Shown here piece after piece: positions 37,599 through 63,510 of a stretch of DNA of 64,000 nt (position 1 is the first letter of the stretch; each line of letters starts with the position of its first letter). The position numbers and the translations under genes are program-made. Source of the DNA: Porticoccaceae bacterium (GTDB lineage: Bacteria > Pseudomonadota > Gammaproteobacteria > Pseudomonadales > Porticoccaceae). The DNA is taken from the NCBI GenBank assembly GCA_028822155.1, contig JAPKEJ010000007.1, forward strand, positions 1-64,000. The letters run 5' to 3'. Under the pieces are notes generated by a model. It saw only the letters and a list, made by a program, of their open reading frames with translations. It did no database searches and was not told where the DNA came from.

Positions 37599-38840
37599 AT
37601 GCCTTTTGGCCTTTTAAAATATGGATTGAGCAGGAACTACCCTGCGAAACACCACTTTACGCCATCTAAAGACCTTAAAAGGCATTATGACGTTGTGATT
37701 ATTGGTGGAGGCGGTCACGGTGCTGCCATTGCCTATAACCTCGCCAAATATCACGGTATTACCAACGTTGCTATCCTCGAAAAAGGCTACCTTGGCGGCG
37801 GAAACACCGCGCGAAACACTGCCGTCATTCGCTCTAACTATTTAACCGAGGCAGGCGTTAAGTTTTACAGCGAATCAGTGAAACTCTTTAACAACCTCAG
37901 TAACGAATTTAACTACAACGTAATGATGGAAAATCGCGGTCAGCTGACGCTGGCCCACAGTGATGCCACTATTCGTAGTTTTCGCTGGCGGGCTGAGGTA
38001 AACCAACATATGGGCGTTCGTTCAGAGCTGGTCGATCGCCAAACAATCGCTGAATTAGTGCCTAACCTTAATATGTCAGAAGACAGTCGATTCCCTATTT
38101 TAGCTGGGCTTTGGCATGCCGACGGCGCTACCGCTCGTCATGATGCTGTCGCATGGGGTTACGCTAAAGGCGCATGTGATCGGGGTGTCGAATTACACCA
38201 ACTAACGGAAGTAGAAGATATCGACATTACCAGCGGTCGGGTTACTGCGGTAAAAACGAATCGAGGTAGAGTCGAGTGCGGCTGTGTTGTTCAAGCTGTC
38301 GCTGGGGCTAGTTCAATAGTCGCTAAAAAAGCTGGCATTCCCCTCCCCATCCATTGTTATCCCCTACAGGCGATGGTCACTCAGCCCTACAAACCGATAC
38401 TGACCCCTCATGTCAGCTCTCCACAGGTACACGTTTATGTGCACCAGACATCTCGCGGAGAATTTGTTGTTGGTGGCGGTTCAGATCCTTACCCCCTCTA
38501 CAACACTAGAGCCACTTTAGACCAGCGCGAGACTCTATCAGCTGCAGCAATGGAACTATTTCCATTTTTAGCCCAAGCAAGACTGTTACGCCAATGGGCT
38601 GGCACCACTGACATGACACCAGATTACAGCCCGATTATGGGTTTAAGCCCTGTAGAAAATTATTATTTGGATGCCGGTTGGGGTACTTGGGGATTCAAAG
38701 CTACGCCAATTTGCGGTGTCACTATGGCCGAACTGGTAGCAACCAAAAAAGTCCCTGACATTATTAAGCCCTTTGAGCTCGAGCGATTTTATCGCTTTGA
38801 ACAAATTAATGAAGCCGGCGCTACCGCCGCGAGCCACTAG
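37599..38840 (+). CDS. soxB: Sarcosine oxidase beta subunit
   Basis: 413 residues, full length for heterotetrameric sarcosine oxidase beta. The FAD-binding VVIIGGGGHGAAIAYNLA, LEKGYLGGGNTARNT (flavin attachment region), the ARHDAVAWGYAKGA segment and a C-terminal GTTDMTPDYSPIMG are family features. It oxidatively demethylates sarcosine (N-methylglycine) to glycine with O2 and THF. It is first in the soxBDAG operon. Confidence 0.95.
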   Translation: MPFGLLKYGLSRNYPAKHHFTPSKDLKRHYDVVIIGGGGHGAAIAYNLAKYHGITNVAILEKGYLGGGNTARNTAVIRSNYLTEAGVKFYSESVKLFNNLSNEFNYNVMMENRGQLTLAHSDATIRSFRWRAEVNQHMGVRSELVDRQTIAELVPNLNMSEDSRFPILAGLWHADGATARHDAVAWGYAKGACDRGVELHQLTEVEDIDITSGRVTAVKTNRGRVECGCVVQAVAGASSIVAKKAGIPLPIHCYPLQAMVTQPYKPILTPHVSSPQVHVYVHQTSRGEFVVGGGSDPYPLYNTRATLDQRETLSAAAMELFPFLAQARLLRQWAGTTDMTPDYSPIMGLSPVENYYLDAGWGTWGFKATPICGVTMAELVATKKVPDIIKPFELERFYRFEQINEAGATAASH

Positions 38841-38850: not shown

Positions 38851-39153
38851 TTGAAACTACTAACATGCCCGCTCAATGGCTCTCGCAACATCAGTGAATT
38901 CACTTATGGTGGCGAATATCACGCAACACCGAATCATCTAACGACGTCAGCGCGAGATTGGGCAGAGCATGTCTTCTTTCATGACAATGCTGCGGGCGTG
39001 GTTACTGAGTGGTGGTGTCATACTGCAAGCTCATTTTGGTTCCTCGCCGAGCGTAACACCATCACCGACGAAATCATTCGTACCTTTAAAGCAGAAGAAA
39101 TCTACACTCAAAGAGTCGACTTTAGCACTATTAATCCGGAGAGCCGATCATGA
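38851..39153 (+). CDS. soxD: Sarcosine oxidase delta subunit
   Basis: 100 residues. The start is TTG at 38851, preceded by GGGGAAGG; no in-frame ATG gives the family N-terminus. MKLLTCPLNGSRNISEFTYGGEYH matches SoxD, as do the WAEHVFFHDNAAGVVTEWW and TASSFWF segments. Only one Cys of the zinc-binding set is obvious at the N-terminus (CPLNG instead of CPYCG). It starts 10 bp after soxB and overlaps soxA by ATGA. Confidence 0.88.
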   Translation: MKLLTCPLNGSRNISEFTYGGEYHATPNHLTTSARDWAEHVFFHDNAAGVVTEWWCHTASSFWFLAERNTITDEIIRTFKAEEIYTQRVDFSTINPESRS

Positions 39154-42056
39154 AGAATCGACTACCTCCACCCTATGGCTCATTGATTAATCGAGAAAAG
39201 ATGGTTCAATTTGAATTTGAATCAAAGGCCTATCAGGGTTTTCACGGCGACAGTGTTGCTAGTGCGTTAACCGCAAACAACCAAACATTGCTCAGTCGCT
39301 CATTTAAGTATCACCGCCCTAGGGGCGTCTTAACCATGGCGGGGCAAGATGCTAATACGATGGTACAACTGCCATCTAACCCAAATGCATTGGCCGATCG
39401 AGAGCTTATCAGTGACGGACTAAAGGTCACTGGTCAAAACTATTCTGGGACCCTAGAGAAAGACCGAGGTCAATGGCTTGGCCTTTTTTCACGATTTTTG
39501 CCAGTAGGGTTTTATTACAAAGCATTCTTTAAACCTCGCGGTATTTGGGAGAAATGGGCTCCATTGATTCGTAAAAAAGCTGGACTTGGTGTTATTAACC
39601 AGCAATTAGTGCCAGATTATTACGACAAACAATATAAATTTTTTGATGTGGTTGTTATTGGCGGCGGTCCTGCGGGTATGCAAGCCGCGTTAGAGTCTGC
39701 AGTACCTAGTTGTGAGGTTCTATTAGTCGACGAGAACCAAAGCCTCGGAGGCTCCCTCAATTACAGTCGCTTTGATGTCGAAGGCGCTCGCGGTAAAAAT
39801 CAGCTTGATAAATTACTTAATGCCATTAACGATAAGCCAAATATCTCAGTAATGACTAACGCTGTTTGTAATGGCTGGTTTGCCGACAACTGGTTGCCCA
39901 TTATCACAAAGAAGCGACTGTATAAGGTTCGTGCCAAGCAAACTATTATGTGTACTGGCTCTTTAGAGCAACCGGCTATTTTTCATAATAATGATCTGCC
40001 TGGCATCATGATGAGCAGTGCCGCACAGCGACTAGTCCACCTTTACGGTGTACGTCCAGGATCCCAAGCAGTGATTGTCACCGGCAATAATGATGGCTAT
40101 GGTACGGCCCTAGATCTTGATGATGCTGGTGTTAAGATTAACGCTATCGTCGACCTACGCGAAGACCCAAATTATGACGATATCGCAAAGGCCGCGGTCG
40201 ATAGAGGCATTAGGGTTGAAACCGGGACAACCGTCTATGCCGCTAAACATAAGGGCGCCAATCGGGTTAGCTCGGTGGATATACGCAAAATCGTCAGCCA
40301 AGGTATCTGTGCCGAGCAAGGTGAGACAATTACCTGTGATCTACTGTGTATGTCAGTGGGATACACTCCCACCTACCAACTTGCCTGTCAGGCCGGCGGA
40401 CAGCTTACCTACGACGATCAGTCAGCTATGTTTAGCCTACGCAACTGTCCCGAATCACTCCAATTAGCCGGTTCAGTGAATAGCTTATGGTCACTTGATG
40501 CCGTTCTAATGGAAGCCAAAAGGGCCGCCACCATAGCCACTAATGCGCTAGGACTTACTCAGGTCCAGGTGGCTGATAGGGTGACTGAAGATACTGTTAG
40601 TCCAAATCATCCTTGGCCTATATTTGCCCACCCAAAGGGTAAAGAATTTATCGATTTCGACGAAGATCTAACCATCGCCGACATTATTAACGCAACGGCT
40701 GATGGCTATGAACATATTCAGCTGGTCAAGCGCTATTCGACCTGCGGTATGGGTCCCTCGCAGGGTCGTCATTCAGCACTTGCCGCTGCTCGATTAGTGG
40801 CCGCAGCGACTAATCGCACTGTGGCGGAAACAGGTGTTACCACCGCGCGACCCCCTTTTTCCGCTGAGCAGTTAGGTCATAGTGCCGGGCGCAGTTTTTA
40901 TCCTGCCCGGCGCAGTAATATGCATTACAGGCATATCGAAGCCGGCGCCGAAATGCTCCAAGCAGGTGCTTGGTATCGTCCCGCCTTTTACCGCTCTAAA
41001 GGTAAGGATTCAACCGCCTGTATAGACGCAGAAGTTAGCAATGTTCGCAACAACGTTGGCCTAGTCGATGTCTCTACACTGGGTGGCATAGAAGTCCGCG
41101 GGGCAGATGCCAGTGAGTTTTTAAATCGATTCTATACCTTTGGATTCCTCAAACAACCCGTCGGCAAGGCCCGTTATGCTCTGCTCACTAATGAAGCAGG
41201 TGTGGTCATTGACGACGGTGTGGCCTGCCGCTTTGGCAACAACCATTATTACGTGACCGCGACCACCGGCGGGGTCGACCGAGTCTATCAGAACATGCTC
41301 AAATGGAACGCTCAATGGCGGTTAGACGTTGATCTTGCTAACGTCACCTCAGCTTATTGTGGTGTTAATATTGCCGGACCTAATGCTCGCGCAGTGCTGC
41401 AAAAAGTCTGCTCTGGTGTTGATTTATCCTCAGAGGCCTTTCCCTATATGGGCGTCCGCGTGGGCAATATCGGGGACATTCCTGCAAGACTAATTAGAGT
41501 CGGTTTTGTTGGCGAGCTAGGCTATGAAATCCATGTCCCTCAGCAATATGGCGAAGCGCTCTGGGACGCATTAATGGTTGCAGGCAACGATTATCACATT
41601 CAACCCTTCGGCATAGAAGCCCAGAGGATACTACGACTGGAAAAAGGCCATATTATTATCGGCCAAGATACCGATGCAATGTCAAATCCCAATGAAGTTC
41701 AGATGGGCTGGGCAGTATCCCAAAATAAACCGTTCTTCGTTGGCGGGCGAACCATTGCTGAATTAGAGAAAAAACCTGGCTTGCGCGGCTTAGTCGGTTT
41801 TGTCATCGATGACACCAAGGCACCACTACCCCGAGAAAGCCATCTAGTTGTCGAAGACCAAAGGATGACAGGACGGGTAACCTCCTGTAACTTTTCTCCC
41901 ACCCTAGGTAAAGCCATAGGCTTAGCCTATGTGCCACCCGAAAAAACTACTGTTGGAACTATGATAGAAATAAAATCAACGGGCGGTGTGAGAGTGTTAG
42001 CTAAGGTCGTAGAACTGCCCTTCTACGACCCCGAAAATTTGCGGCAGGAGCTATAG
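39150..42056 (+). CDS. soxA: Sarcosine oxidase alpha subunit
   Basis: 968 residues, normal length. It begins with a ferredoxin-like region (FHGDSVASALTANNQ, then FKYHRPRGVLTMAGQD). A NAD-binding Rossmann domain follows with VVIGGGPAGMQAALES. The C-terminal third is a GcvT/aminomethyltransferase fold that passes the methyl group to tetrahydrofolate (PARRSNMHYRHIEAGAEM, GQDTDAMSNPNE). The ATG overlaps the soxD stop. The name refers to sarcosine oxidase, not thiosulfate oxidation. Confidence 0.95.
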   Translation: MKNRLPPPYGSLINREKMVQFEFESKAYQGFHGDSVASALTANNQTLLSRSFKYHRPRGVLTMAGQDANTMVQLPSNPNALADRELISDGLKVTGQNYSGTLEKDRGQWLGLFSRFLPVGFYYKAFFKPRGIWEKWAPLIRKKAGLGVINQQLVPDYYDKQYKFFDVVVIGGGPAGMQAALESAVPSCEVLLVDENQSLGGSLNYSRFDVEGARGKNQLDKLLNAINDKPNISVMTNAVCNGWFADNWLPIITKKRLYKVRAKQTIMCTGSLEQPAIFHNNDLPGIMMSSAAQRLVHLYGVRPGSQAVIVTGNNDGYGTALDLDDAGVKINAIVDLREDPNYDDIAKAAVDRGIRVETGTTVYAAKHKGANRVSSVDIRKIVSQGICAEQGETITCDLLCMSVGYTPTYQLACQAGGQLTYDDQSAMFSLRNCPESLQLAGSVNSLWSLDAVLMEAKRAATIATNALGLTQVQVADRVTEDTVSPNHPWPIFAHPKGKEFIDFDEDLTIADIINATADGYEHIQLVKRYSTCGMGPSQGRHSALAAARLVAAATNRTVAETGVTTARPPFSAEQLGHSAGRSFYPARRSNMHYRHIEAGAEMLQAGAWYRPAFYRSKGKDSTACIDAEVSNVRNNVGLVDVSTLGGIEVRGADASEFLNRFYTFGFLKQPVGKARYALLTNEAGVVIDDGVACRFGNNHYYVTATTGGVDRVYQNMLKWNAQWRLDVDLANVTSAYCGVNIAGPNARAVLQKVCSGVDLSSEAFPYMGVRVGNIGDIPARLIRVGFVGELGYEIHVPQQYGEALWDALMVAGNDYHIQPFGIEAQRILRLEKGHIIIGQDTDAMSNPNEVQMGWAVSQNKPFFVGGRTIAELEKKPGLRGLVGFVIDDTKAPLPRESHLVVEDQRMTGRVTSCNFSPTLGKAIGLAYVPPEKTTVGTMIEIKSTGGVRVLAKVVELPFYDPENLRQEL

Positions 42057-42058
42057 CT

Positions 42059-42784
42059 ATGGCAAGTCTAGACCCTACTACAGGTATGCGGCGCAGTCAG
42101 CTATATCGTCGCCATATCAACAATAAGGCTGTGTTTAAAAACACCGGTTACGATTTCGTTGTTAGCCACTACGACAATGGCAATGACCAACACACAGAGC
42201 TAGACCAAGCACGCTCCATGGCTATATGCGATCTATCAACACTGCCAAGGACTGGCTTTAAAGGCGCAGGGGCTCGTAGTTGGGCAGAGAATCAAGGCAT
42301 AAAAATACCCGATAGCGCCAACAGGTCTATCGTTCAACCCGACGGCTGTCTAGTGGCTACCTTATCTGACCAAGAATTACTGATTCTCAGTGATATTTTG
42401 GCTAAAAGCCATCAAGTGACTGCCCTTGGAGAACAATCCACTAACGATCATTTAGAAAATGACACTCAGACGTACTTGCTACCTCGAGGTGACAGCCATT
42501 GCTGGCTCGCAGTGACCGGTAACCAGGCTGCTGAGATGTTCTCAAAAGTTTGTGGCGTAGATTTACGCCCCCATAAATTTGCACTGGGCGATATAGCGCA
42601 GACATCAGTTGCCAAGACCAACGCAGTGGTTATTCGCCAAGATCTAGGCCAAATACTCAGTTATTACATTCTGTGCGATATAAGCGCCGCAGAGTTTCTC
42701 TGGGATTGTCTACTTGATGCAATGCAAGAGTATGCCGGTAGTCCAGTTGGCATTAGTGCACTAGAAGCCTTAGTCTCCGCCTAA
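42059..42784 (+). CDS. soxG: Sarcosine oxidase gamma subunit
   Basis: 241 residues, last of soxBDAG, starting 2 bp after soxA. It is the divergent GcvT-like structural subunit. DLSTLPRTGFKGAGARSWAENQGIKIPD and a C-terminal LWDCLLDAM segment fit SoxG, but conservation is low and the protein is somewhat longer than usual. Its assignment rests partly on gene order. Confidence 0.88.
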   Translation: MASLDPTTGMRRSQLYRRHINNKAVFKNTGYDFVVSHYDNGNDQHTELDQARSMAICDLSTLPRTGFKGAGARSWAENQGIKIPDSANRSIVQPDGCLVATLSDQELLILSDILAKSHQVTALGEQSTNDHLENDTQTYLLPRGDSHCWLAVTGNQAAEMFSKVCGVDLRPHKFALGDIAQTSVAKTNAVVIRQDLGQILSYYILCDISAAEFLWDCLLDAMQEYAGSPVGISALEALVSA

Positions 42785-49848: not shown

Positions 49849-49861
49849 GACTAGGGTACTC

Positions 49862-50644: not shown

Positions 50645-50662
50645 GATTAAGAGATAATTGTA

Positions 50663-51597: not shown

Positions 51598-52329
51598 TTA
51601 ATCTCCCGCACCCGCTCTGGAGTCTGCGGTGGATTCAACCAGTATTTTGGCGACCAAGTCATCGAGAGTTTTCCAAAGCGCCTGGTCTATCTCTATACCC
51701 TGCTCTACTGAATTTCTGTAACAGTCGGCCATTTTTGCCTTAGGGTAATTTTCAACTAAGGTGCCGAACTCTAGCTGCTCACCATATTGCTTTTCAATAG
51801 CCTCTAAATCCGGGCCACAAAAGATTCTTAACGATTGCCGATCAAAGACGTCAATCATTTTAAAGGTCTGATACTCGGGAAGCTCGGAAACCGCTGTAAT
51901 AGACACTTTTACGCAGTAATCAAGCTGCCGCCAATAGGCAATGAACGCGAAATTACGGCGCGCTGCTTTGACCAGCCGCTCTATGATAAATGTCCGGTTA
52001 TAACAATTAATAATTTCTAATCCTGCGCTAGAACCCTGTATTACCTGGGATCTAATCAGGTCGACCGCTTCACTGCCGCACAACAAAACAGAAGTACCTC
52101 TGCCATCCAGCACAGAATTATGCGCATCTTCTTGCACTAGGTCGGCATGGATAGGCGCGGTGGTATTTAAGTAAGCCAAGGCCGCCAGTAACCGGTCAAA
52201 GCCATCAAAACCATGGGTCTCTAGCCACACTACCATGTCCGCAGCATCATAATAGTCTCCGGGTTGGAATCCCAACGCTTCAAATGCCTTCTTTAAGGAA
52301 GCCGTTAATTCATTCTTGGATACTTTCAT
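51598..52329 (-). CDS. DUF3726-like protein
   Basis: 243 residues from the ATG at 52329, which follows GGA and begins 5 bp after the upstream stop; a frame start at 52374 would overlap. MKVSKNELTASLKKAFEALGFQPGDYYDAADMVVWLETHG resembles the opening of DUF3726 proteins (recalled from memory). The middle has SSAGLEIINCYNRTFIIERLV. No catalytic motif is obvious. It is last in the operon and therefore likely acts in the same pathway. Confidence 0.6.
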   Translation of the reverse strand: MKVSKNELTASLKKAFEALGFQPGDYYDAADMVVWLETHGFDGFDRLLAALAYLNTTAPIHADLVQEDAHNSVLDGRGTSVLLCGSEAVDLIRSQVIQGSSAGLEIINCYNRTFIIERLVKAARRNFAFIAYWRQLDYCVKVSITAVSELPEYQTFKMIDVFDRQSLRIFCGPDLEAIEKQYGEQLEFGTLVENYPKAKMADCYRNSVEQGIEIDQALWKTLDDLVAKILVESTADSRAGAGD

Positions 52330-52334
52330 ACTGC

Positions 52335-54080
52335 TTATCCAGACTTCAATGCAGGTTTGACAGGAAACTGCCAATCATCGGAAAGTAGTTTGCCAAAATC
52401 ACTGATCAGCGGAGCACCCTGGAACATCGTGTTGCGCACCCAAAGGCGTGAGCGGGGATCAAATTTACTGACCCCAAAAAATGACAATTTGCAGCGCAGT
52501 AGATGAATTGGCATCACATCTGTGTGCACCAAATTTTCACGGATATCGCCGTAACGACTCTGGGCCATGGTTTGAATACGGGCAACAATGCCACTATAGG
52601 TCGGGTTGTGCATTATAAAATGCGCTACATTCTGCTTCGGGCGATCCTGATTATAGTCATAGATTCGGTCGTAACACTCACGTACCCGGCGACCAATACC
52701 GAGAGGCATCTCTTTTTCTATACCCATATCAATATTGGTTTGGCCCAGACGTGGCTCCATTTTCTCTTCAGAGCGATACCAAAATGCCCCCATAGACTCG
52801 CACTTGCTGAAATCTATAGCTAAGGCCCAATCATATTTATCTTCAATAACCTCTAACAGCTCAGCGACTTCCATTTCAGGGGTTACTTCATGTGATTCGT
52901 CCACCCACATATGCTCTTCCAAGCCGTCAACCAACGCTGGGTATAGTTCAATTAGCAGTGTATTGATCACTTCTTGAGTTTCTATACACCAATGCTGCTC
53001 AGCATACTGAATGAGAGACGCCCACACGTGATGGCTACTCGCTAGCACTGCGCCCTGTTCTTGTAGCCATAGGTGAAGCAACTGTAATTCTTCTCGCAGC
53101 AGCACATTGGCGTTACTTTGTCGCTCATCTGCGGTGACAATCTCACTTAGATGCTGAATAACACGCTGCGTTGCTGTGTCCAAACGCGCCAGTGTGGCTT
53201 CATCAACACCGGCCGCACTGGCGTCAACAACTGTGGCTAATGCAGTTTCACGCATTTCAATCCACTGATTGATTAATAGCGGATGATTAATTAAAAATGG
53301 CGCCATACCCAGACCGGTGGAATTGCCAATACCTATATAGCGTTTGATATCTTCATGGAGAACCACCGCGCTTTTTGGCGCCCGCTGCGAGGCTAAATAG
53401 TCCGCCTGCTGCATACTGAAATGGCGCAGCATGTAACAGGTGAACATCTCTGCGGCAAAGGGTCGGGCGAAGTCGCGGTGCTTGGTCCAAACTTTTTCCC
53501 AATCCGCCATACCCAACTTACCACTACCGTAGGCTGCAGTAGTTCGGTATAGATAACCCACTTCGGCAATCAAATCGACATTCGGTTGATGGCCATGAGC
53601 CAACTCATTAACCACATACTCAAAGGTGCGCGCACTGCGGTTAGCACGCGATAAAACTAGCACCCTAGAGTCGACTCGGCCCGCCTCCTGTTTGGGTACA
53701 TTGTTGCGTAAAAAATCGAGTTGTTCAGTATCCACCGTCCCTTCGCAGAGTGCCATGGTCAAATCCCACTGATCGGCTATAACCCGATCATTTCGATTTT
53801 CTGGATCCAGATGATGAGAGAACAGAACATAGCTAAAAGTGCCGTATTTGGCCTCGACCTGATAGACCACGGTGCCATAACCATGCTCGTCGAGATCAAA
53901 TACCGAGCTACTGATCTGCCAGTTCTCAGCTACCATGCGGCGCACTAATGTGCGCATAAAGCTGAGGCGCGATTGATGAAAGCTACCCAGACGCTCTAGC
54001 TGCATAACCTGACTGGCAGGCCGCATCTGCAAAACAGTCAAGTCATCAGAATTGTGCGTCTGGTAAGAGCCTTTGCGCAT
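52335..54080 (-). CDS. Unrecognised 581-residue protein
   Basis: Large soluble protein with no signal peptide or transmembrane helix. The N-terminal third is mixed, with FGxSHHLDPENRN and VVYQVEAKYGTFSYVLFS. Notable later residues are ANRSARTFEYVVNELAHGHQPN, IGIGNSTGLGMAPFLINHP and a C-terminal MHNPTYSGIVARIQTMAQSRYG. A Cys is kept in SKCESMGAFWYRS. I do not recognise the family or any nucleotide-binding motif. It lies between the M19-like protein and the DUF3726-like gene, all on one strand. The start site is uncertain because there is no good ribosome site. Confidence 0.75.
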   Translation of the reverse strand: MRKGSYQTHNSDDLTVLQMRPASQVMQLERLGSFHQSRLSFMRTLVRRMVAENWQISSSVFDLDEHGYGTVVYQVEAKYGTFSYVLFSHHLDPENRNDRVIADQWDLTMALCEGTVDTEQLDFLRNNVPKQEAGRVDSRVLVLSRANRSARTFEYVVNELAHGHQPNVDLIAEVGYLYRTTAAYGSGKLGMADWEKVWTKHRDFARPFAAEMFTCYMLRHFSMQQADYLASQRAPKSAVVLHEDIKRYIGIGNSTGLGMAPFLINHPLLINQWIEMRETALATVVDASAAGVDEATLARLDTATQRVIQHLSEIVTADERQSNANVLLREELQLLHLWLQEQGAVLASSHHVWASLIQYAEQHWCIETQEVINTLLIELYPALVDGLEEHMWVDESHEVTPEMEVAELLEVIEDKYDWALAIDFSKCESMGAFWYRSEEKMEPRLGQTNIDMGIEKEMPLGIGRRVRECYDRIYDYNQDRPKQNVAHFIMHNPTYSGIVARIQTMAQSRYGDIRENLVHTDVMPIHLLRCKLSFFGVSKFDPRSRLWVRNTMFQGAPLISDFGKLLSDDWQFPVKPALKSG

Positions 54081-54202
54081 GAATTTTTCGCCAATTAATT
54101 GAGTTAGCCCGGTTACAATTTAAGTGTGGAAAACATAAGTTTATCAGAAGATTACGTTTTCTCTATTAGTCTGGTTCAGTACAGACCTTACTTATTAGTA
54201 AG

Positions 54203-55210
54203 TCAATTTTCGACGAGGATAGCAGACTTACTCGAGAATGATTTTTCAAAAAACGACAGCCAGTTTTCACCCATAACCTTAGCGATGTCATCATCGTTAA
54301 AACCTTGATCGGACAAACCTTGAGCTACTACGTAAAGGTCTTTAGTACCGCTAAACCAGCTGGGTTGATCGGGCCAAGCAGGTCGCTCTGCAGAACCTTC
54401 ACCATGATCAACACTGGTCGTCCAGCGCCCACTGCGCATCCATTCCAGTACTTTATAGTCCCAGTTAAGGCACAGGTCAGAACCAATCCCGACACGGTCA
54501 ATACCGATCATTCCAACTGTTTGACCAATCATTTGGCAAAATTCTTTAAGGGTACAGTCAGGCCCATTTTTTAGATGAAACGGATACATGCTAAAGCCAA
54601 GTATTCCCTCTGACTCGCCAATGGCGCGAATCACCGCATCAGACTTGTTGCGCAATGCTGCATGGAAAAAGCTTGGATTGGCGTGAGTAATGGCGATGGG
54701 GCGCTCTGACAACTCAATCGTCTCTAGAGTTGATTTTTCTGCACTGTGAGACATATCAATGACCATACCCACCCGGTTCATCTCTTTAATAACCTGCTTG
54801 CCAAACCGTGTGACGCCACCGTCTTTCTCTTCGTAGCACCCTGTCGCCAACAAACTCTGGTTGTTGTAAGTCAACTGCATAATGCGCACGCCTAACTGAT
54901 GGAGAATTTCAACCATCTTGACGTCGTCTTCAATAGGCGAGCAATTTTGGAAACCGAAAACAATACCAACTTTACCTAGGCGCTTAGCATCGAGAATATC
55001 TCGCGCTTGGTGGACCGGCATAATGAGATCACTGTGGTTAATGAAATGACGATTCCAAGTTCCTATATTTTCTAGGGTCTCACGAATATTTTCCCAATAG
55101 GCAATAGTCACATGAATACAATGCACACCACTCTGCTGAGCATCTTCAAACAGTTGACGATTCCAGTTAACGTACTGCAAACCATCGATCATGAGCATAT
55201 CTTTACGCAT
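54203..55210 (-). CDS. M19 renal-dipeptidase-fold protein, altered metal site
   Basis: 335 residues, aligning with the M19 group found beside betaine-degradation genes (as PA5396 of Pseudomonas). The canonical N-terminal HxD zinc ligands are absent: MIDGLQYVNWNRQLF replaces DGHND, and the middle Glu region reads IVFGFQNCSPIEDD. Two later histidine motifs, VIDMSHSAEKST and ITHANPSF, remain. It may be a hydrolase of a cyclic or N-acyl compound rather than a dipeptidase. AAAGGGGG precedes the ATG. It is the second gene of the operon that starts with the ALDH at 56689. Confidence 0.8.
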   Translation of the reverse strand: MRKDMLMIDGLQYVNWNRQLFEDAQQSGVHCIHVTIAYWENIRETLENIGTWNRHFINHSDLIMPVHQARDILDAKRLGKVGIVFGFQNCSPIEDDVKMVEILHQLGVRIMQLTYNNQSLLATGCYEEKDGGVTRFGKQVIKEMNRVGMVIDMSHSAEKSTLETIELSERPIAITHANPSFFHAALRNKSDAVIRAIGESEGILGFSMYPFHLKNGPDCTLKEFCQMIGQTVGMIGIDRVGIGSDLCLNWDYKVLEWMRSGRWTTSVDHGEGSAERPAWPDQPSWFSGTKDLYVVAQGLSDQGFNDDDIAKVMGENWLSFFEKSFSSKSAILVEN

Positions 55211-55243
55211 TGAATCCCCCTTTAACGCCCAACTAACATTAGC

Positions 55244-56689
55244 CTAGTACGGCTTGCTGTAATTGGTTTTGATAATGGTATAAAAGTCCCTCGCATACTG
55301 ACCTTGCTCCCTTGGACCATAGCTAGACGACTTTCGTCCACCAAATGGCACATGGTAATCAGTCCCTGCAGTCGGCAAATTAACCATCACACATCCTGAT
55401 TTGGAGTGACGCTTAAAGTGACTCGCATACTTAAGAGAAGTCGTCATGATTCCTGAGGTTAAGCCAAAATCAGAATCATTGGAAACCTCTAAGGCCTCTT
55501 CATAGCTGTCAACTTTGATCACACAGGCAACGGGGCCAAACACTTCATCTCGATTAATTTGCATTTCGTTACTGGTATTGATGAACAACGCCGGCGACAT
55601 AAAGTAGCCGTCGGTTTCAAGGTGCAATCTCTCTCCGCCCTGGACTAATTCGGCGCCTTCTTCTTTGGCTAATTCGACATACTTAAGGTTTTGAAGGAGT
55701 TGTCGCTCGTCAACTACCGCGCCTATATGAACCCCTGGGGTCATCGAGTTGCCTACCACCAGTTTACCCATCGCCTCAGTCATTTTGCTGACAAACTCAT
55801 CATGTATTCCTGATTCAACAATAATCCGTGACGACGCGGTACACTTTTGTCCTGTACCAAAATAAGCTCCCGCAACAGCACAGTCTACAGCGGACTGCAG
55901 GTCGGCGTCGTTGAGAACAACCAGCGCATTTTTGCTGCCCATTTCAAGTTGTATTCGAGACATATTTTCAATGCAATTGCGCGCAATGTGACGGCCAACA
56001 TCAACTGAACCAGTAAAGGTAATGGCATCGACTCCAGCAGAGCTAGTCAATTTTTCACCGACCTCACGACCCGAGCCCATGACCAAATTAAATGCACCAT
56101 CCGGTAAGCCACTACGGCTAATAATCTCAGCCAAAATCCAAGCGCTGGCTGGCACAAGCTCAGCAGGCTTAAGTACAACGCAGTTACCATAAGCAAGAGC
56201 TGGTGCAACTTTCCATGCGGCAACCGCCATAGGAAAGTTCCATGGTGTAATGATCCCAACCACCCCGAGCGGCTCACGGTGCACCTCCACGTCTATCCCA
56301 GGACGAACCGACGCGGTATTCTCTCCCATTAAACGCAAGACCTCAGCAGCGTAATACTGGAAAAACTGCCCTGATCTGCCCACCTCGCCAATGCCTTCGG
56401 CTAAGGTTTTACCTTCTTCTCGGGCCAAAATGGCACCAATCTCTTCTTTGCGCTCAATCAGCTCATCACCGATCATGTCGAGTATAGCTTTGCGAGCTTC
56501 CAAAGCACTTTGAGACCAGCTATCAAAGGCCTTGTTAGCGGAAGCAATGGCAGCAACACAATCATCTGCGTCGGCTTTTGCATATTGGCCCACAACATCA
56601 CTGGTATCCGATGGATTTAGATTTGTAGTTATCTTCTGGCCTTCCAGCCATTGGCCATTAATGTAGTTACGATAAACGTCACCGCTCAT
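55244..56689 (-). CDS. NAD(P)-dependent aldehyde dehydrogenase, KGSADH-like
   Basis: 481 residues. IITPWNFPMAVAAWKVAPALAYG, ELVPASAWILAEI and a TGQKCTASSRIIVE segment with the catalytic Cys are family features. The C-terminal VPFGGRKSSSYGPREQGQYARDFYTIIKT is close to 2-oxoglutarate semialdehyde dehydrogenases of sugar-acid and hydroxyproline degradation. AGGGGAAAG precedes the ATG. It is first in a four-gene operon with the M19-like protein and two unknown genes, divergent from a LysR regulator. Confidence 0.88.
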   Translation of the reverse strand: MSGDVYRNYINGQWLEGQKITTNLNPSDTSDVVGQYAKADADDCVAAIASANKAFDSWSQSALEARKAILDMIGDELIERKEEIGAILAREEGKTLAEGIGEVGRSGQFFQYYAAEVLRLMGENTASVRPGIDVEVHREPLGVVGIITPWNFPMAVAAWKVAPALAYGNCVVLKPAELVPASAWILAEIISRSGLPDGAFNLVMGSGREVGEKLTSSAGVDAITFTGSVDVGRHIARNCIENMSRIQLEMGSKNALVVLNDADLQSAVDCAVAGAYFGTGQKCTASSRIIVESGIHDEFVSKMTEAMGKLVVGNSMTPGVHIGAVVDERQLLQNLKYVELAKEEGAELVQGGERLHLETDGYFMSPALFINTSNEMQINRDEVFGPVACVIKVDSYEEALEVSNDSDFGLTSGIMTTSLKYASHFKRHSKSGCVMVNLPTAGTDYHVPFGGRKSSSYGPREQGQYARDFYTIIKTNYSKPY

Positions 56690-56781
56690 GTCTTTCCCCT
56701 TGCAAAAATATTAACTGAGTATCCAGTGATAGTTATTTGAAGACTATATTAACGCGCCCAAATAATAAATCTATTTACAAA

Positions 56782-56799
56782 TTTATATAGATATATAAA
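56782..56799. promoter_or_regulatory. AT-rich palindrome in divergent ALDH/LysR promoter
   Basis: TTTATATA-GA-TATATAAA, an 18-bp palindrome with a 2-base centre, lies 92 bp before the ALDH start and 68 bp before the LysR start. It is compatible with a LysR T-N11-A binding site (inference). Confidence 0.55.
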
Positions 56800-56867
56800 C
56801 TTGACTAATATATAGCCATCCAGTGCCGCGCTTCATTCTTATACTAAGACAATCAAAAGGTGCCGTA

Positions 56868-57788
56868 ATGAAATACCTTAATATCACCCTAAAACATCTC
56901 AGAACGTTCGTTATTGTTGCCCGCTATGGCAGTTTTAACAAAGCGGCAGAGGAACTCTCTAGAACGCAGCCTGCAATCACCTTAGCCGTGAAGCAGTTGG
57001 AGAACTTCATCGGTTTGAGACTTCTGGACAGAACCACGCGAAGAGTCACTCCAACGGCAGAAGGAGAGAATTTTATTCCTATTGCAGAACGCTTAGTGCG
57101 GGACTTTGATACGGCCATATCAGACTTAAAAGCTACTGCAGAGAGGAGAGTTGGAAACATCAGCATGGCGATCGTTCCCTCGGTAGCAACAAACTTACTT
57201 CCACCGATTATCAAGACATTTTCTACCAATTTCCCGGGAATAAATTTACTTTTAAACGACGACACCTCTAGAGGCGTACAACAAAAGGTCGAACGTAACG
57301 AAGTAGACTTTGGTATTGGTAGTATCTGGCAACAAAATAAACTTCTGAACTTTCGGCCATTGTTCGCTGATAATTTGGAACTAGCCTGCCACCGTGATCA
57401 CTATTTGGCTGCTAGCACTGGCCCAATTCACTGGAATGAACTTGCTAACGAGACCTTCCTAGACACTGGCATCACTAAAACAATGCACTCCCGACAATCC
57501 TTGGGACCATCGAAGTTTGATTTTCCAAATATTACAACCTTAATAGCCATGCTTAAATCTAACCTAGGCGTAAGTATCCTGCCCTCTCTCGCCATTCCTA
57601 GAGAAACGGGTGAACTTGTATCTAGACTGTTAATGCCAGCCGAAAAACGCGACATATGCTTGATTACCCGCAACGAGTGGACCCTCTCGCCGGCCGCAGA
57701 GGCTATGATTGAAACAGTTATTGCCGAATTGCCCAGTCAAATAAGCCGTCTGGGACTATCTACGCCTAATGATGCGGACTCAGACTAA
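56868..57788 (+). CDS. LysR-family regulator, divergent from ALDH operon
   Basis: 306 residues from the ATG at 56868, with AAGG at 9-base spacing; an open frame begins at 56823 but its first 15 residues are not LysR-like. The HTH is LKHLRTFVIVARYGSFNKAAEELSRTQPAITLAVKQLE. It is divergent from the ALDH operon and convergent with the DpkA-like gene, so it probably controls one or both. Confidence 0.9.
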   Translation: MKYLNITLKHLRTFVIVARYGSFNKAAEELSRTQPAITLAVKQLENFIGLRLLDRTTRRVTPTAEGENFIPIAERLVRDFDTAISDLKATAERRVGNISMAIVPSVATNLLPPIIKTFSTNFPGINLLLNDDTSRGVQQKVERNEVDFGIGSIWQQNKLLNFRPLFADNLELACHRDHYLAASTGPIHWNELANETFLDTGITKTMHSRQSLGPSKFDFPNITTLIAMLKSNLGVSILPSLAIPRETGELVSRLLMPAEKRDICLITRNEWTLSPAAEAMIETVIAELPSQISRLGLSTPNDADSD

Positions 57789-57809
57789 CGGCCAATTTAT
57801 AGCACAGGC

Positions 57810-58829
57810 CTACTCTGTAGCCTGAGTGAATTCCAAGCACTTAGCGTGGACTGCTTCTTTAACCGAAATACCCTCAACTGCATGCCTCTCTCGATTGGCA
57901 TACCGTCGATTACCCGGTATATGAGCACCCTCCATTCCACCCAGTAGTTGCAAGAAGGATTCTGAATGTTTCAACCAATTATCAGCATCACCAAATCGAT
58001 TAGGATCAATGGCCAGCATAAACTCGCCACCGTTGGGTGGGCCGCCATCATTGTTATCATTTTTCTGAGCTTCAAAGCTAAAATCTTGGCCCGTTAAACC
58101 TGCGACCAAAAGCTCTATCATCATCGCAATGGTTGAACCTTTATGACCTCCAAATGGCAGTAAAGCACCTCCATTAATAATTTTATCAGCGTCAGTAGTT
58201 GGTACTCCATCGGCATCAACTCCGGTCCCTAGAGGGACAGGATGACCATCACGAGCAGCGATCATCACTTCACCACGGGCCATTGACGCTGAGGCCTGAT
58301 CAAAGACAAGTGGCACCTGCTCACCGCGAGGCCAGCCAAAGCACATTGGATTTGTACCAAATAGTGGCTCCTTAGCCCCAGCGGGAACTACTGCTGGCTT
58401 ATAAGTTGTAAAAGCCATCGCTGCCAACCCTGCTTCGGCAATGGGCTCTACTTCCACCCATAGCGCTGCAAAGTGATGCACATTAACCAGTGCCATGGCC
58501 GCTATACCGTTCTCTCGAGCCGCATCAATAAGCGTCTGTCGACCCATCTCTAGCGCTAGTGGCGCATAGCCATGATCGCCATCCACTTTAACCACTCCTG
58601 GTGATATTCGCGAGACTGTTGGTTGAGCATTGCCATTAACCTTGCCACTCCGTAGAGACGCGACATAACCTGGCATACGGAAAAGACCATGAGCAGCACA
58701 GCCATCAAGCTCGGCTGCAGAAATAGTTCTAGCCACAGCAGCTGCATTTTCTTTATTACAGCCGTTGGCTTCGAGTCCTTGCTCAACTATCACCTGTATT
58801 TCTTGTCGTGTCATTATCACGTCAGCCAT
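57810..58829 (-). CDS. Ldh-family oxidoreductase (DpkA/YlbC-like)
   Basis: 339 residues of the malate/L-lactate dehydrogenase-2 superfamily. AAELDGCAAHGLFRMPGYVASL near the N-terminus, HHFAALWVEVEPIAEAGL (NAD(P) site region), AKEPLFGTNPMCFGWPR and PFGGHKGSTIAMMIELL are features of Pip2C/Pyr2C reductases (DpkA), which reduce cyclic imino acids. CAGGAG precedes the ATG. Its position beside the KGSADH-like operon suggests a cyclic amino acid substrate (proline or lysine derivative), but this is inference. Confidence 0.85.
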   Translation of the reverse strand: MADVIMTRQEIQVIVEQGLEANGCNKENAAAVARTISAAELDGCAAHGLFRMPGYVASLRSGKVNGNAQPTVSRISPGVVKVDGDHGYAPLALEMGRQTLIDAARENGIAAMALVNVHHFAALWVEVEPIAEAGLAAMAFTTYKPAVVPAGAKEPLFGTNPMCFGWPRGEQVPLVFDQASASMARGEVMIAARDGHPVPLGTGVDADGVPTTDADKIINGGALLPFGGHKGSTIAMMIELLVAGLTGQDFSFEAQKNDNNDGGPPNGGEFMLAIDPNRFGDADNWLKHSESFLQLLGGMEGAHIPGNRRYANRERHAVEGISVKEAVHAKCLEFTQATE

Positions 58830-58869: not shown

Positions 58870-60879
58870 TTAAATGGGGTATCGATCTAACACTGGGCCT
58901 AGGGCCTCTTTAAGTGGATCTAAAAATTCGTCAAAATTCTTCCATTGCTCCACGCCATCTTGATAAATGGGCTGGCGTACCTGCTCTGAACTTGGTGTTC
59001 GCACTGAGCGCTCATTTTCATAGAAACTAATACAGCTCTCTTCAAAGTCAAGTCCACAGTAGTCGAGTATGCGTCTCACCTGAGTATCAAGATCAGCGAC
59101 AACGTCTTCATATTGAACGCGTAACACTTTGCCAGGTAACACCTTATCCCAGTGATCCATAAGATCAACATAGTCTTTGTAGTAGGTCCCAACCTCATCA
59201 AGGCCATAGGTAAACTCTTGGCCTTCAGCAAAAAGCTGTTTAAATCCACTGAAACAACATCCCATTGGATGTCTGCGAGCATCGATAATCTTAGCATTGG
59301 GAAGCATCAAATTTATCAATCCGATGTGCCTGAAATTATTTGGCATTTTATCGATGAAAAATGGCGCTGAGCCTCTATGGACCCGTGTTTCTTTGATAAA
59401 TGTCTCACCAAATTCTTCAAACTTTTCAGACTCTAAGGTTTTTAGCACCGCTGGGTAATGGTTTGTCGCACTCATTCGTTCGCCACGGCGTAATTTTTGA
59501 GCTAAAGAAAGCATATTAGGTAATTCCATGGTCCCATCAACTTGACTATGTGACGCTAGGATTTGCTCCAACAAGGTAGATCCTGACCTTGGCAGACCGA
59601 CGATAAAGATAGGATCTGGCGCGTCACATCCAGCACCGACGTTAACAGCAACAAAGCTCTCATCAAATACCTCAACTTGGGCATGGAACTCATCGGTTAA
59701 TTCTTTAGATTTGTAACGACTTTGAGCCTTTTTGAAGGCATTCCCTCGCTCATAGTGCTCAAAAGATTTTTCAAAAAGACCCTTGTCTTCATAGGCCTTA
59801 CCCAAGGCAAAGTTGAGATAAACACGACTCATGTGCGAGATACCAAGATTAATTTGTTGGACCTCCATCGTCGCTAACTCTTCGTCACTAAAGCTAAAAA
59901 GTTTTAGATTAGCTAATGAATAATATGCTTCTCCGTGGCCCGGATACTTTTTGATCGCACGGCGGTAAGAGTCAATTGCCTCATCAGTTTGCCCTCTCGT
60001 TTTTAATGCATGACCTCGAGATGTGAGGGTTACAGGGTCTTCAGGTATGATCGCTAAAACAGAATCGAAGGCTTCTAAGGCAGTGTCATAGTCGCCAGAC
60101 TGCATAGACTCAATAGCAAAAACCGATTGAAACTGTGGGTTTTTTGGATCTTTCTCCAGTAGAATTTTGGCCTGCATAAGGGCTTCTTCATGTTTTTGCC
60201 GTTTTCTAAGCACCTGAATATAGTCAATTCGCACCTGTGTACTTTCTGGTGAAAATTCGAGAGCACTCTCTAGTAAGAACTCTGCATCTTCTAGAACTCC
60301 CAGTCGATTTCCAATATCAGCCAACAGGCGCATACCTTCAATATGACGAGGTACTTTTTGCATAAACTCTTTACACAACTGCTCAGCTTTGACCAACTTG
60401 CCATGAGCAATGAGATCCATGACAACAACCAGTACTTTTGGTAGAGACTCTAGCGACGCCAACTGCTGTTTTAACGGTCCGGTAAACGAATCTCTGCCGG
60501 TAGCTGAAAGAATCTCGATTTGCGCTCTAAAGCTAGCGAACAGGGCCGGATTTATTTGTGTAGCCCGACTATAGGCGTTAAGTGCCGCGTCTGCTTTGTT
60601 CATTGCTCTAAAAACATGGCCCGTTTCTTGATGGCCGCGACTGTGGTCAGCGACTAGGCCCTTTAACCGATCAAGATTACTTAGAGCAGCCGAATATTTT
60701 TTCAAGTAGCGCTGGCATACTGCCAGCATGTATAGCCCTTCTTCGTGGTCTGGTTCTACTGCCACGACATCCAACAGCTGTTGTTCAGCCTTGGCAAAAC
60801 TACCAGACTGTAAAAGACCTTTAATCCCCTCCAGCAACTCATCACCGACACTGCCGCCTGGTACCAATTTATCGACCAA
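58870..60879 (-). CDS. TPR-domain sulfotransferase
   Basis: 669 residues from the TTG at 60879. The N-terminal 400 residues hold several TPR repeats (for example VTLTSRGHALKTRGQTDEAI). The C-terminal domain is a sulfotransferase with the PAPS loop PIFIVGLPRSGSTLLEQILASH and KMPNNFRHIGLINLMLPNAKIIDARRHPMG. The frame is open to ATG 60921, but that ATG lies inside the stem of the TonB-receptor terminator. TTG at 60879 has GGAG 7 bases upstream and is the better start. Proteins of this type are frequent neighbours of TonB receptors in marine gammaproteobacteria. Confidence 0.9.
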   Translation of the reverse strand: MVDKLVPGGSVGDELLEGIKGLLQSGSFAKAEQQLLDVVAVEPDHEEGLYMLAVCQRYLKKYSAALSNLDRLKGLVADHSRGHQETGHVFRAMNKADAALNAYSRATQINPALFASFRAQIEILSATGRDSFTGPLKQQLASLESLPKVLVVVMDLIAHGKLVKAEQLCKEFMQKVPRHIEGMRLLADIGNRLGVLEDAEFLLESALEFSPESTQVRIDYIQVLRKRQKHEEALMQAKILLEKDPKNPQFQSVFAIESMQSGDYDTALEAFDSVLAIIPEDPVTLTSRGHALKTRGQTDEAIDSYRRAIKKYPGHGEAYYSLANLKLFSFSDEELATMEVQQINLGISHMSRVYLNFALGKAYEDKGLFEKSFEHYERGNAFKKAQSRYKSKELTDEFHAQVEVFDESFVAVNVGAGCDAPDPIFIVGLPRSGSTLLEQILASHSQVDGTMELPNMLSLAQKLRRGERMSATNHYPAVLKTLESEKFEEFGETFIKETRVHRGSAPFFIDKMPNNFRHIGLINLMLPNAKIIDARRHPMGCCFSGFKQLFAEGQEFTYGLDEVGTYYKDYVDLMDHWDKVLPGKVLRVQYEDVVADLDTQVRRILDYCGLDFEESCISFYENERSVRTPSSEQVRQPIYQDGVEQWKNFDEFLDPLKEALGPVLDRYPI

Positions 60880-60893
60880 TTTATTTCTCCGTA

Positions 60894-60922
60894 TAAAAAT
60901 AATGCCCCTCGAAAGGGGCATT
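60894..60922 (-). terminator. Intrinsic terminator after the TonB receptor gene
   Basis: A perfect 9-bp stem (aatgcccct 60901-60909 with aggggcatt 60914-60922) and a 4-base loop are followed on the minus strand by ATTTTTAT. It lies between the TonB receptor stop and the sulfotransferase start. Confidence 0.9.
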
Positions 60923-60954: not shown

Positions 60955-63510
60955 TTAGAAGTTATAGGTCATACGCACACCCATAGTACGGGGTCTTGCA
61001 TATGAAACACGCTCTCTATCATTAATGTAGTTACGCGCTAATTCAGCACGCTCATCGGTGAGGTTGTCAATAAATAGCTCTGCTCCCCAAGTATCAGTCG
61101 TTACACCCGCTGTCAGACCCAACATGGTCCAACCCGACATACGGTCACGGTTGATTCGGATGATATCACTATAAGCAGAAGCTGAGTGAGCAAGATGCGG
61201 CATAATATGAGCTGTCATACCAGAGTCGGTCTGCCACTCATAACGCGCTTGAATATTCGCTTGACGCTCAGGAGCGAAAGCCAAGGAATCACCAGCAACA
61301 ACATCTTTAGACGTCGTTAGCGTTTTAGTTATCTCAGTATCAAGAATTGACAAACCAGCGCTGATTGTTAAACCTTCAACACTCTCAGGTGCCCAAATTA
61401 AGTCAGCCTCTAGGCCAGTAACTTCGGCATCTGCGGCGTTATCAGAGAAGAACAAGTTAGCAATACTTGGATCAAAGATAGTTGTTTGTAGTCCATCAAT
61501 CTGAGCCATAAACACACTACCATTGAAACGCATCCGCCCGTCCATCATATCAGCTTTCCAACCGGCCTCGAAGTTCATCATGTCATCAGTGTCAAACGCA
61601 TAAGGAACTGTGTAGAGACCATCTTTACTAGTATAACCACCGGGGCGGTTTAAGAATCCAGCTCGGAAACCTTCAGAAACTGTTGCATAAAGCAGCATGT
61701 CTTCAGTTGGTGTGTAAGAGGCTGTGAACTTAAAGATAGTTCCATCGGCTGTGGATTTATCGATCCCCGAGGTAGGGTTTTCGCCACCGTAGAGAGTCGC
61801 AATGTTAGTACCAAACACCTGTGCATCTACACAAGCTGGGTTCGTGCTACCACAGAAGTTGTAGAACGAGCCTGCAGCACTACCATCAAAGTCAATCTCG
61901 ATATCATAGTAACGAGCCCCTACTGTCACAGAAAGTTGGTCGCTAATGTCATAGCTCAACTCGCCGAACACACCCATTTGTTCATCAGTCCGCTCAATAT
62001 CGTTACGGAATATCTCGCCTGGGGCATAAGGGTCATTGGATGACAGGTATCCGTCACTGTATGAGTAGTTAGGACTTGCGAAACCAGGACCAGAACCTGC
62101 TCCAGCCCAACCCTGAGCCTTAATGCTGCCAGGATAAGTGAAGCTAACGCGCTCTTGCAGAGTAGTCTCACTAAAGAAGGCACCAGCAGTCAGACGAGTA
62201 CGCTTGTCTTGATCTGTTGTTATACGAATCTCATGAGTCGACACTTCAGTTTCTGAGTGGCTAGGCGCTGACATATTTGGCTCATAACAGGTACCTGTTC
62301 CATCGCCATAAGTCACTGAGTAATCACATATGTAGTAAGGCAGATACTGTCCTACAAACATATAATCTGAATAGCCAATATTCTGATCAGCAGTTCGCTC
62401 AGTATAAGCACCGGTATAAACAACATCTAAACCAGCAACTCGGCCGGTTAGAGTCCAGCTTGTGTTATCAAACTCATCTTTCAATGAATCATCAATATAG
62501 CTTTGGATCTCAAGGTCACCTAGATTAGGGTCGGCGAAGAAAACACCGTCTGCTTCAAGCTCTTGAGTAGTGTGTGAAAGCAAAAGATCCCAATCATCGC
62601 TCAAGCTAATCAAAGCACTCAGTCGAGCACCGGTATATTTAGATTGGTTAAAATCTTCTTCTAAAAGAGCCGTATTATCCGCAGCAATAAAAGTAACACC
62701 TGGCATGTCAACATAGCCATTACCATCCGCATCAACTCCAGTACCTTGGAAACCCGTACGAGCGGCGCTAACAGGAACACCATTAGTACGCACAAATCCT
62801 TCCATACGGAAACGAGCACTTTCTTCTACCGTACGCGATCCATGAACGTTATCGATATAACCACCCTTGTCATCGCTATAAACAACACCACGCAAGGTTA
62901 CTTTGTCGCTAACGGGCAAGTTGTACATTGCCTCGAAGTTATTATTAGTGCCACCATTATTGATGGTTGAAAAACCCATCTTCAACTTACCATAAGCTTC
63001 AGAAGGATCAGGCTTGTTGGTAATTAAACGAACAGTACCAGCTTGAGAGCTTGAACCAAATAAAGTGCCCTGGGGTCCAGCTAGAACCTCAACACGACTT
63101 AAATCAGCTGCATAAACGTCAAGGTTACGGCCAGGCTGTGCCAATGGCTGCTCATCAAGATAAAAAGCAACGTTAGGCGCCAAACCTGCGACACCAGCAA
63201 TAGAAATAGCCGGAGTGGTAGATGCTACACCACGAATGTAAATTGTATTTTGACCTGGACCGCTACCACCAGCTGTTACGCCAGGTAGTTGGATAAGGTA
63301 ATCTTCAAAATTTGAAATACCCATTTGATCCAGTTTTTCTGAGGTTATAGCAGAAACGGCAATTGGAATATCCTGAGTACTTGCTGAAGTTTTTGTGGCA
63401 GTTACGATGACTTCTTCGATCTGAGCCGCCGCCAAACTTGCGCCAGTAGCTGCAAAACCTGCCGCGATAACTGAAACTACTGCTCGGTTTACTTTTGTCT
63501 TACGAAACAT
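60955..63510 (-). CDS. TonB-dependent outer-membrane receptor
   Basis: 851 residues with a signal peptide cleaved near AAA-QIEE. The TonB box EEVIVTATK is followed by a plug domain (SAITSEKLDQMGI, the PGVTAGGSG-type loop, RVEVLAGPQGTLFGSSSQAGTVRLIT). The rest is a 22-strand barrel ending in an aromatic C-terminus YNF. The plug lacks clear siderophore markers; the subgroup takes up varied substrates. GGGGAG precedes the ATG. It is paired with the TPR-sulfotransferase downstream. Confidence 0.95.
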   Translation of the reverse strand: MFRKTKVNRAVVSVIAAGFAATGASLAAAQIEEVIVTATKTSASTQDIPIAVSAITSEKLDQMGISNFEDYLIQLPGVTAGGSGPGQNTIYIRGVASTTPAISIAGVAGLAPNVAFYLDEQPLAQPGRNLDVYAADLSRVEVLAGPQGTLFGSSSQAGTVRLITNKPDPSEAYGKLKMGFSTINNGGTNNNFEAMYNLPVSDKVTLRGVVYSDDKGGYIDNVHGSRTVEESARFRMEGFVRTNGVPVSAARTGFQGTGVDADGNGYVDMPGVTFIAADNTALLEEDFNQSKYTGARLSALISLSDDWDLLLSHTTQELEADGVFFADPNLGDLEIQSYIDDSLKDEFDNTSWTLTGRVAGLDVVYTGAYTERTADQNIGYSDYMFVGQYLPYYICDYSVTYGDGTGTCYEPNMSAPSHSETEVSTHEIRITTDQDKRTRLTAGAFFSETTLQERVSFTYPGSIKAQGWAGAGSGPGFASPNYSYSDGYLSSNDPYAPGEIFRNDIERTDEQMGVFGELSYDISDQLSVTVGARYYDIEIDFDGSAAGSFYNFCGSTNPACVDAQVFGTNIATLYGGENPTSGIDKSTADGTIFKFTASYTPTEDMLLYATVSEGFRAGFLNRPGGYTSKDGLYTVPYAFDTDDMMNFEAGWKADMMDGRMRFNGSVFMAQIDGLQTTIFDPSIANLFFSDNAADAEVTGLEADLIWAPESVEGLTISAGLSILDTEITKTLTTSKDVVAGDSLAFAPERQANIQARYEWQTDSGMTAHIMPHLAHSASAYSDIIRINRDRMSGWTMLGLTAGVTTDTWGAELFIDNLTDERAELARNYINDRERVSYARPRTMGVRMTYNF

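Follow-up and report, generated by a model that had tools for sequence, protein, structure and literature searches.

What does the compact four-gene operon within positions 51,598 to 58,829 of this DNA do for the bacterium that carries it? The DNA is a 64,000-nucleotide stretch, here termed the window, of contig JAPKEJ010000007.1 (GCA_028822155.1) from a Porticoccaceae bacterium. The operon encodes an aldehyde dehydrogenase (ALDH), an M19-family amidohydrolase, a 581-amino acid protein (581) and a DUF3726 protein. An initial annotation, made from the sequence alone, took the genes for a catabolic operon of an undescribed pathway, perhaps for a cyclic amino acid, its betaine or an N-acyl derivative. 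We put a probability of about 0.78 on their being the operon with which a marine, Porticoccaceae-like bacterium breaks down homarine (N-methylpicolinate), and homarine is probably the substrate. N-methylglutamate dehydrogenase (Mgd) participates in homarine catabolism, according to a passage in PMC13390433, which also cites a conserved pathway in environmental bacteria. The initial annotation is borne out in part: its view of a catabolic operon, with a cyclic betaine as the likely substrate and a repurposed M19, holds.

The genes are read in the order ALDH, M19, 581 and DUF3726 on the minus strand, with gaps of 33, 122 and 5 bp. The co-directional arrangement, the divergent LysR gene and the DpkA-like reductase beside it were all confirmed as open reading frames at these places:

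51598..52329, minus strand: DUF3726 protein, 243 amino acids from the likely ATG at 52329 (the listed open reading frame starts at TTG 52374)
52335..54080, minus strand: 581-amino acid protein, the proposed N-methylpyridinium ring-opening enzyme, with no family or solved match found
54203..55210, minus strand: M19-family amidohydrolase (PF01244, 4.9e-76) that has lost HxD and changed E to Q; proposed N-deformylase
55244..56689, minus strand: aldehyde dehydrogenase, 2-oxoglutarate-semialdehyde-dehydrogenase-like (Aldedh, 9.6e-159)
56868..57788, plus strand: divergent LysR regulator, with the likely ATG at 56868 after AAAGGTG (the listed open reading frame starts at GTG 56823)
57810..58829, minus strand: Ldh_2/DpkA-like dehydrogenase (Ldh_2, 6.2e-99), proposed N-methylimino-acid reductase, in a place conserved in the genus

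The window also encodes four sox-like subunits at 37599–42784, including a folate-binding alpha subunit, and the set qualifies as Mgd on this composition:

37599..38840, plus strand: mgdA (soxB-like) subunit of N-methylglutamate dehydrogenase
38851..39153, plus strand: mgdB (soxD-like) subunit with a TTG start at 38851 (PF04267, 5.4e-26)
39150..42056, plus strand: mgdC (soxA-like) subunit with a folate-binding GCV_T domain
42059..42784, plus strand: mgdD (soxG-like) subunit

The soxB and soxA NCBIfam scores of these genes are below cut-off. The beta subunit, encoded by mgdA, is 72.9% identical to a copy on an Acinetobacter plasmid, compared with 45% to the genome's own second copy. The plasmid cluster carries a dimethylamine-monooxygenase (dmm) gene, purU and folD, and about 4.5 kb farther on there are genes annotated as glnT, glutamine amidotransferase, glxC and FMN-binding glutamate synthase, which are of the GmaS and MgsABC types. 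In a tree of 12 rows (support 97/95), the window mgdA groups with the mgd of this N-methylglutamate-pathway plasmid and away from its own soxB paralog.

The 581 and mgd genes tend to occur together. Among 94 related genomes, where mgd presence was taken as a match at E below 1e-140, 34 have both, five have 581 alone, two have mgd alone and 53 have neither (Fisher p 7e-18, no phylogenetic correction). Within the genus (n = 50), the corresponding numbers are 34, two, one and 13 (Fisher p 4e-9, likewise uncorrected). The two genes are on one contig in 21 of the 34, with starts 11–19 kb apart, and on different contigs of split assemblies in the other 13. Five species chosen from the 21 share one syntenic island. 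A mgd-like gene also stands directly after 581–DUF3726 in three named loci (L042, L070, L092) and after one BCCT gene in another (L072); Halieaceae and HTCC2148 are among the carriers of such adjoining genes.

The methylamine pathway was set aside. GmaS did not score over cut-off in any of the 50 genus members, and among the 94 genomes it did so only in G086. In 35 genus members, the MgsC profile gave either no match or matches limited to residues 93–340 within open reading frames of 1,172–1,534 amino acids, as would be expected of the glutamate synthase GltB. In the genus members searched, Mgd thus seems to depend on some source of N-methylglutamate other than the known methylamine route.

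Homarine could provide it. Conversion of homarine to N-methylglutamate loses ring carbon 6, and cleavage between C5 and C6 would account for an ALDH akin to α-ketoglutarate semialdehyde (KGSA) dehydrogenase, an M19 hydrolase and a DpkA-like reductase in one locus. In the route proposed, 581 and DUF3726 would open the pyridinium ring between C5 and C6 to give an N-formyl-N-methyl compound with an aldehyde at C5, a step that formally needs O2 and two electrons or an equivalent. The ALDH, whose relatives act on the similar 2-oxoglutarate semialdehyde, would oxidize the aldehyde to the acid, and the M19 protein would take off the N-formyl group. The DpkA-like Ldh may then reduce the resulting N-methyl-imine to N-methylglutamate, which Mgd would demethylate to glutamate and methylene-tetrahydrofolate. 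Where Ldh is lacking, RidA may speed imine hydrolysis to 2-oxoglutarate and methylamine. The LysR protein would be the controller of the operon. For this exact order of steps and chemistry, the odds appear to be a little below even.

Classical M19 dipeptidases have a binuclear metal site, HxD...E...H...H. The M19 protein of the operon matches its family over nearly the whole length, and its best solved relative by sequence is 2i5g. The altered metal site that had been pointed out in the initial annotation is real and is common to the operon copies aligned. In an alignment of 87 rows, neither H nor D occurs at the positions of HxD (3 gaps); Q stands in place of E in 84 rows and L in one, with a gap in two; and the two His are kept in 85 and 86 rows and the Asp in 86. 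The 87 rows are the window and 86 named loci; an earlier alignment of 98 rows held 11 extra same-genus or own copies, the window gene being repeated. On this metal-site definition the operon M19 does not belong with the classical dipeptidases.

The ALDH had been called KGSA dehydrogenase-like. Its nearest NCBIfam families are indeed the 2,5-dioxovalerate and KGSA dehydrogenases, but its scores, 495 vs 750 and 489 vs 770 bits, are below the equivalog cut-offs. It matches hydroxymuconic-semialdehyde dehydrogenase at 334 bits. A comparison with the PDB at 1e-100, too strict a threshold, gave no match. The best NCBIfam model for LysR is PsrA, an L-proline-binding factor, at 150 vs 540 bits and therefore below cut-off. 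The Ldh_2 protein scores 331.7 bits against a cut-off of 38.8, and its best solved relative is DpkA (1wtj/2cwf, 6.9e-85 by phmmer); it qualifies as an Ldh_2/DpkA reductase on family score and nearest solved relative.

The 581-amino acid protein had been noted as unrecognised, and so it has proved. Its only Pfam match is at chance level (DUF3243, 0.094, below cut-off), and none of the 14 sequences of the family alignment has a credible Pfam match; one of them matched a Borrelia family at 7e-4, which is taken as chance. The predicted model is confident (pLDDT 91.9, pTM 0.91), and no relative is listed for it among solved folds (Foldseek, VIA, PDB). No match emerged when the 581 profile was compared with the alignment of Ldh. 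The genome that carries the window is 2.44 Mb in size, and its 581 protein is 82–83% identical to a copy in a Porticoccaceae metagenome-assembled genome.

The DUF3726 protein (PF12525, 2e-12) does not reach the Pfam Ldh_2 cut-off (0.002, 17.7 bits vs 38.8). Its AlphaFold model (pLDDT 93.9) matches YiaK/Ldh_2 dehydrogenases by both Foldseek and VIA, the Ldh_2 fold being common to both, and on this prediction the protein is a shortened form of the Ldh_2/YiaK fold. A Mesorhizobium plasmid has 581 fused to DUF3726, an arrangement suggestive of a physical pair; DUF3726 is the probable partner of 581. A literature search found nothing on DUF3726. A phage origin of the two proteins was set aside, as neither has a PHROGs match. 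Tentatively, and with somewhat less assurance than for the step order, 581 and DUF3726 may constitute a new kind of pyridinium-ring-opening enzyme, made of a new fold and a dehydrogenase fold about 100 residues shorter than usual. Its family would comprise two branches. One, for homarine, would leave the pathway either through Ldh followed by Mgd or through RidA, which would set methylamine free; the other, carried on Sinorhizobium pSymA, would act on trigonelline or a different N-methylpyridinium betaine.

Co-occurrence beyond this genome, which was proposed as the check on the initial annotation and whose absence was to refute it, is extensive, and the annotation withstands that check. Relatives of 581 are found in 168 of 72,556 plasmid records, in 39 of the 94 related genomes and, in a sample of 398 genomes from the phylum, in 29. 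Of these 94 genomes, 37 have DUF3726, which occupies 39 places and always adjoins a 581 gene; in the two genomes with 581 and without DUF3726 (G001, G048), the 581 gene is cut off by a contig end. Gene neighbourhoods were compared in 94 named loci, 14 from plasmids and 80 from genomes; the latter are the best 80 of 576, so the sample leans to close relatives. A DUF3726-family gene is near 581 in all 94, although 47 of these supplied rows to the profile and so match it necessarily; the remaining 47 do so at 7e-10 or better. In 80 of the 94, the DUF3726 start overlaps the 581 stop or lies no more than 50 bp from it, as measured on open reading frames extended to the first start codon. Labels for the remaining genes come from blastp with single queries, and the ABC-transporter matches are loose. 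With 31 short-flank loci left out, 63 loci have at least 8.5 kb on both sides, and nearby there are M19 in 63/63, ALDH in 56/63 and a BCCT transporter in 48/63. Three loci (L047, L051, L054) have the 581–DUF3726 pair with LysR and no M19 in the available flank, which for L051 is only 1 kb downstream. The core of 581, DUF3726 and M19 is near-inseparable, and its linkage spans Proteobacteria and Bacillota. The gene set is reordered in the Bacillota loci L101, L104 and L093 (in L101 and L104 as 581, M19, DUF3726-like, ALDH, IclR-like and BCCT), and this other gene order suggests transfer between phyla.

The locus as first marked holds, but in related species the island is wider and includes mgdABCD and the two genes that lie beyond Ldh_2, on the opposite side of LysR from the operon:

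58870..60921, minus strand: what we take to be a TPR-sulfotransferase, which goes with the locus in related species (NCBIfam gives TPR-type matches only, below cut-off)
60955..63510, minus strand: TonB-dependent receptor, locus-linked (NCBIfam matches below cut-offs)

The TonB receptor (41–56% identical) and the sulfotransferase are present in the four of the five island species whose contig reaches there, and they also accompany the operon in L049, L057 and L058. The receptor possibly serves outer-membrane uptake of a betaine.

Several observations concern transport and the intervening DNA. In the related genomes G022, G025 and G041, a BCCT gene stands between M19 and 581, where the window has only 122 bp (54081–54202). 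A 379-amino acid protein at 26765–27904 has a weak partial BCCT match (PF02028, 1.5e-8, positions 218–354). The window species has two full BCCT genes elsewhere; these share about 30–36% identity with most BCCT genes at the surveyed loci and about 48–55% with three L086/L042 copies, none of which adjoins 581. Between mgd and the operon (44099–51577) there are genes for what is presumably a double-length CaiB-like CoA-transferase, an iron-dependent alcohol dehydrogenase, an ALDH like methylmalonate-semialdehyde dehydrogenase, IclR and a GcvA-like protein. These are syntenic in the genus and have no role in the proposed route.

Ldh and RidA appear to replace one another. Among the 63 long-flank loci, Ldh is nearby in 11, RidA in 32, both in none and neither in 20, counted at E below 1e-5 within 9 kb for both genes (hypergeometric p 1.4e-4, no phylogenetic correction). 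The RidA count is 33/63 within 10.5 kb; it falls to 2/63 under a rule of >70 bits because RidA is short, and it includes two second-branch loci, without which it is 30/59. In 37 of the 94 loci, RidA lies no farther than 1 kb from a core gene, and in 34 of these it has the same strand as the nearest one (six distances to core genes are negative, five for RidA and one for Ldh in the fused Mesorhizobium locus L027). Its position takes three forms, beside BCCT, beside DUF3726 or beside ALDH. On the 581 tree, the Ldh label and the RidA label each need at least 5 changes, considering labelled rows only. The tree changes and the three positions make the exchange look repeated, and the mutual exclusion suggests two exits from the pathway.

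Four plasmid loci, from Sinorhizobium meliloti pSymA, Ensifer, Variovorax and Neorhizobium, differ in content. These have IclR, 581, DUF3726-like and M19 genes and lack the operon's ALDH and Ldh; two have an aminotransferase and a gene like succinate-semialdehyde dehydrogenase. On the 581 tree, these loci make up a single clade with a long branch. According to a passage of PMC4207669, S. meliloti that lacks pSymA fails to grow on trigonelline, and the title of a 1991 paper, as cited in PMC12489286 and PMC6297676, puts trigonelline genes on pSym. This is why trigonelline is the guess for the second branch, and the branch may serve it. On the Sinorhizobium record, nifH was sought as a marker of where the second cluster lies with respect to the symbiotic region, and it had no match.

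Could the same substrate be degraded by other chemistry? Hydration and opening between N and C6 would give N-methyl-2-aminomuconate semialdehyde, which the ALDH would oxidize, with RidA acting like 2-aminomuconate deaminase, itself a member of the RidA family. The closeness and strand of RidA at so many loci and the hydroxymuconic-semialdehyde match of the ALDH suit such a scheme. It would keep six carbons, however, and so yield no N-methylglutamate; it leaves M19, present in every long-flank locus, without a role; and the ALDH scores higher with the KGSA-type families. We consider it improbable. Slightly less probable again is the degradation of another N-methylated cyclic betaine, such as trigonelline, N-methylproline/stachydrine or N-methylpiperidine carboxylate. 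N-methylproline, once opened and oxidized, would also yield N-methylglutamate for Mgd, the KGSA dehydrogenase-like ALDH and DpkA-like Ldh suit ring-opened imino acids, the best family of LysR binds L-proline, albeit below cut-off, and some loci are near Rieske, MttB or dimethylsulfoniopropionate genes. Yet N-methylproline requires neither the M19 nor the 581/DUF3726 step, trigonelline has its carboxylate on C3 and would not yield N-methylglutamate, and it is for homarine that the Mgd link is reported (PMC13390433). A stachydrine or hydroxyproline-betaine operon was set aside, as the core has no Rieske demethylase or epimerase. That the genes are a loose assembly, with the mgd linkage reflecting only ancestry within one genus, is very unlikely: the syntenic CaiB-like, alcohol dehydrogenase, methylmalonate-semialdehyde dehydrogenase-like and IclR genes in between would fit it, but the core is linked across phyla and mgd-like genes adjoin it in Halieaceae and HTCC2148 too.

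Certain observations weigh against the homarine assignment. 581 occurs without mgd in G001 and G046 of the genus and without window-type mgd in G076, G091 and G093 outside it, and mgd occurs without 581 in G049 (as it does outside the genus in G067). In alphaproteobacteria, and in the loci L024, L026 and L031, the nearby sox-like genes share only 35–45% identity with mgd of the window and could encode genuine sarcosine oxidase. The M19 site is without ligands that the dipeptidase uses, and one-third of the long-flank loci (20/63) have neither Ldh nor RidA nearby. No cofactor motif was recognised in the 581-amino acid protein, and the oxygen-dependent ring opening is accordingly a guess. The window species is without the operon's BCCT gene. 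Finally, the identity with the published homarine operon, which is most likely, rests on fit and on an unconfirmed name: the operon is reportedly called homABCDER, for five enzymes and a regulator, a set to which ALDH, M19, 581, DUF3726, Ldh and LysR would correspond, and a literature search on the name found nothing.

The pathway reference is Ferrer-Gonzalez et al. (2026, Nat Microbiol), as cited in PMC13390433, and the present finding is most likely this recently reported operon; the claim of an undescribed pathway is therefore probably wrong. A literature search for homarine genes gave no title beyond the paper that cites the 2026 work. Ruegeria pomeroyi draws down homarine quickly, according to a passage of PMC12817926, and homarine is listed in PMC9723723 among compounds without a confirmed transporter in this species; the homarine passages of PMC9723723, PMC12093977 and PMC9038784 name no catabolic genes. 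The gene set is found in other Ruegeria and in Phaeobacter. Homarine is an abundant algal and marine nitrogen metabolite, and the link provides a genetic marker for its use. Two families without function, 581 and DUF3726, gain a probable one, 581 being a probable enzyme to which the searches matched no structural relative. From the Ldh/RidA exchange it can be predicted whether a bacterium retains the nitrogen as glutamate or gives off methylamine. Of most interest are the proposed ring-opening pair, the altered M19, this exchange and the second branch.

With the homarine pathway, as far as it can be seen from its citation (Ferrer-Gonzalez et al., 2026), the operon would have in common that environmental bacteria depend on Mgd to use an N-methylpyridinium carboxylate. 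Its own features are a TonB receptor in the island and, unlike most surveyed loci, no BCCT gene. The N-methylglutamate pathway for methylamine (GmaS, MgsABC, MgdABCD) shares an Mgd orthologue with it, but GmaS (50 genus members) and MgsC (35) were not found. The trigonelline pathway of Acinetobacter (Tgn) is similar in the opening of a pyridinium ring to an N-formyl compound and in having an ALDH and a hydrolase; it has a two-component flavin oxygenase, and none was seen in the window operon. The operon copies differ from M19 dipeptidases in that the HxD pair and the Glu are replaced, as in the Pseudomonas aeruginosa-type amidohydrolase 2i5g. Ldh_2/DpkA and DUF3726 appear to have the same fold, with DUF3726 about 90–115 residues shorter and the sequence-profile alignment confined to its N-terminal half.

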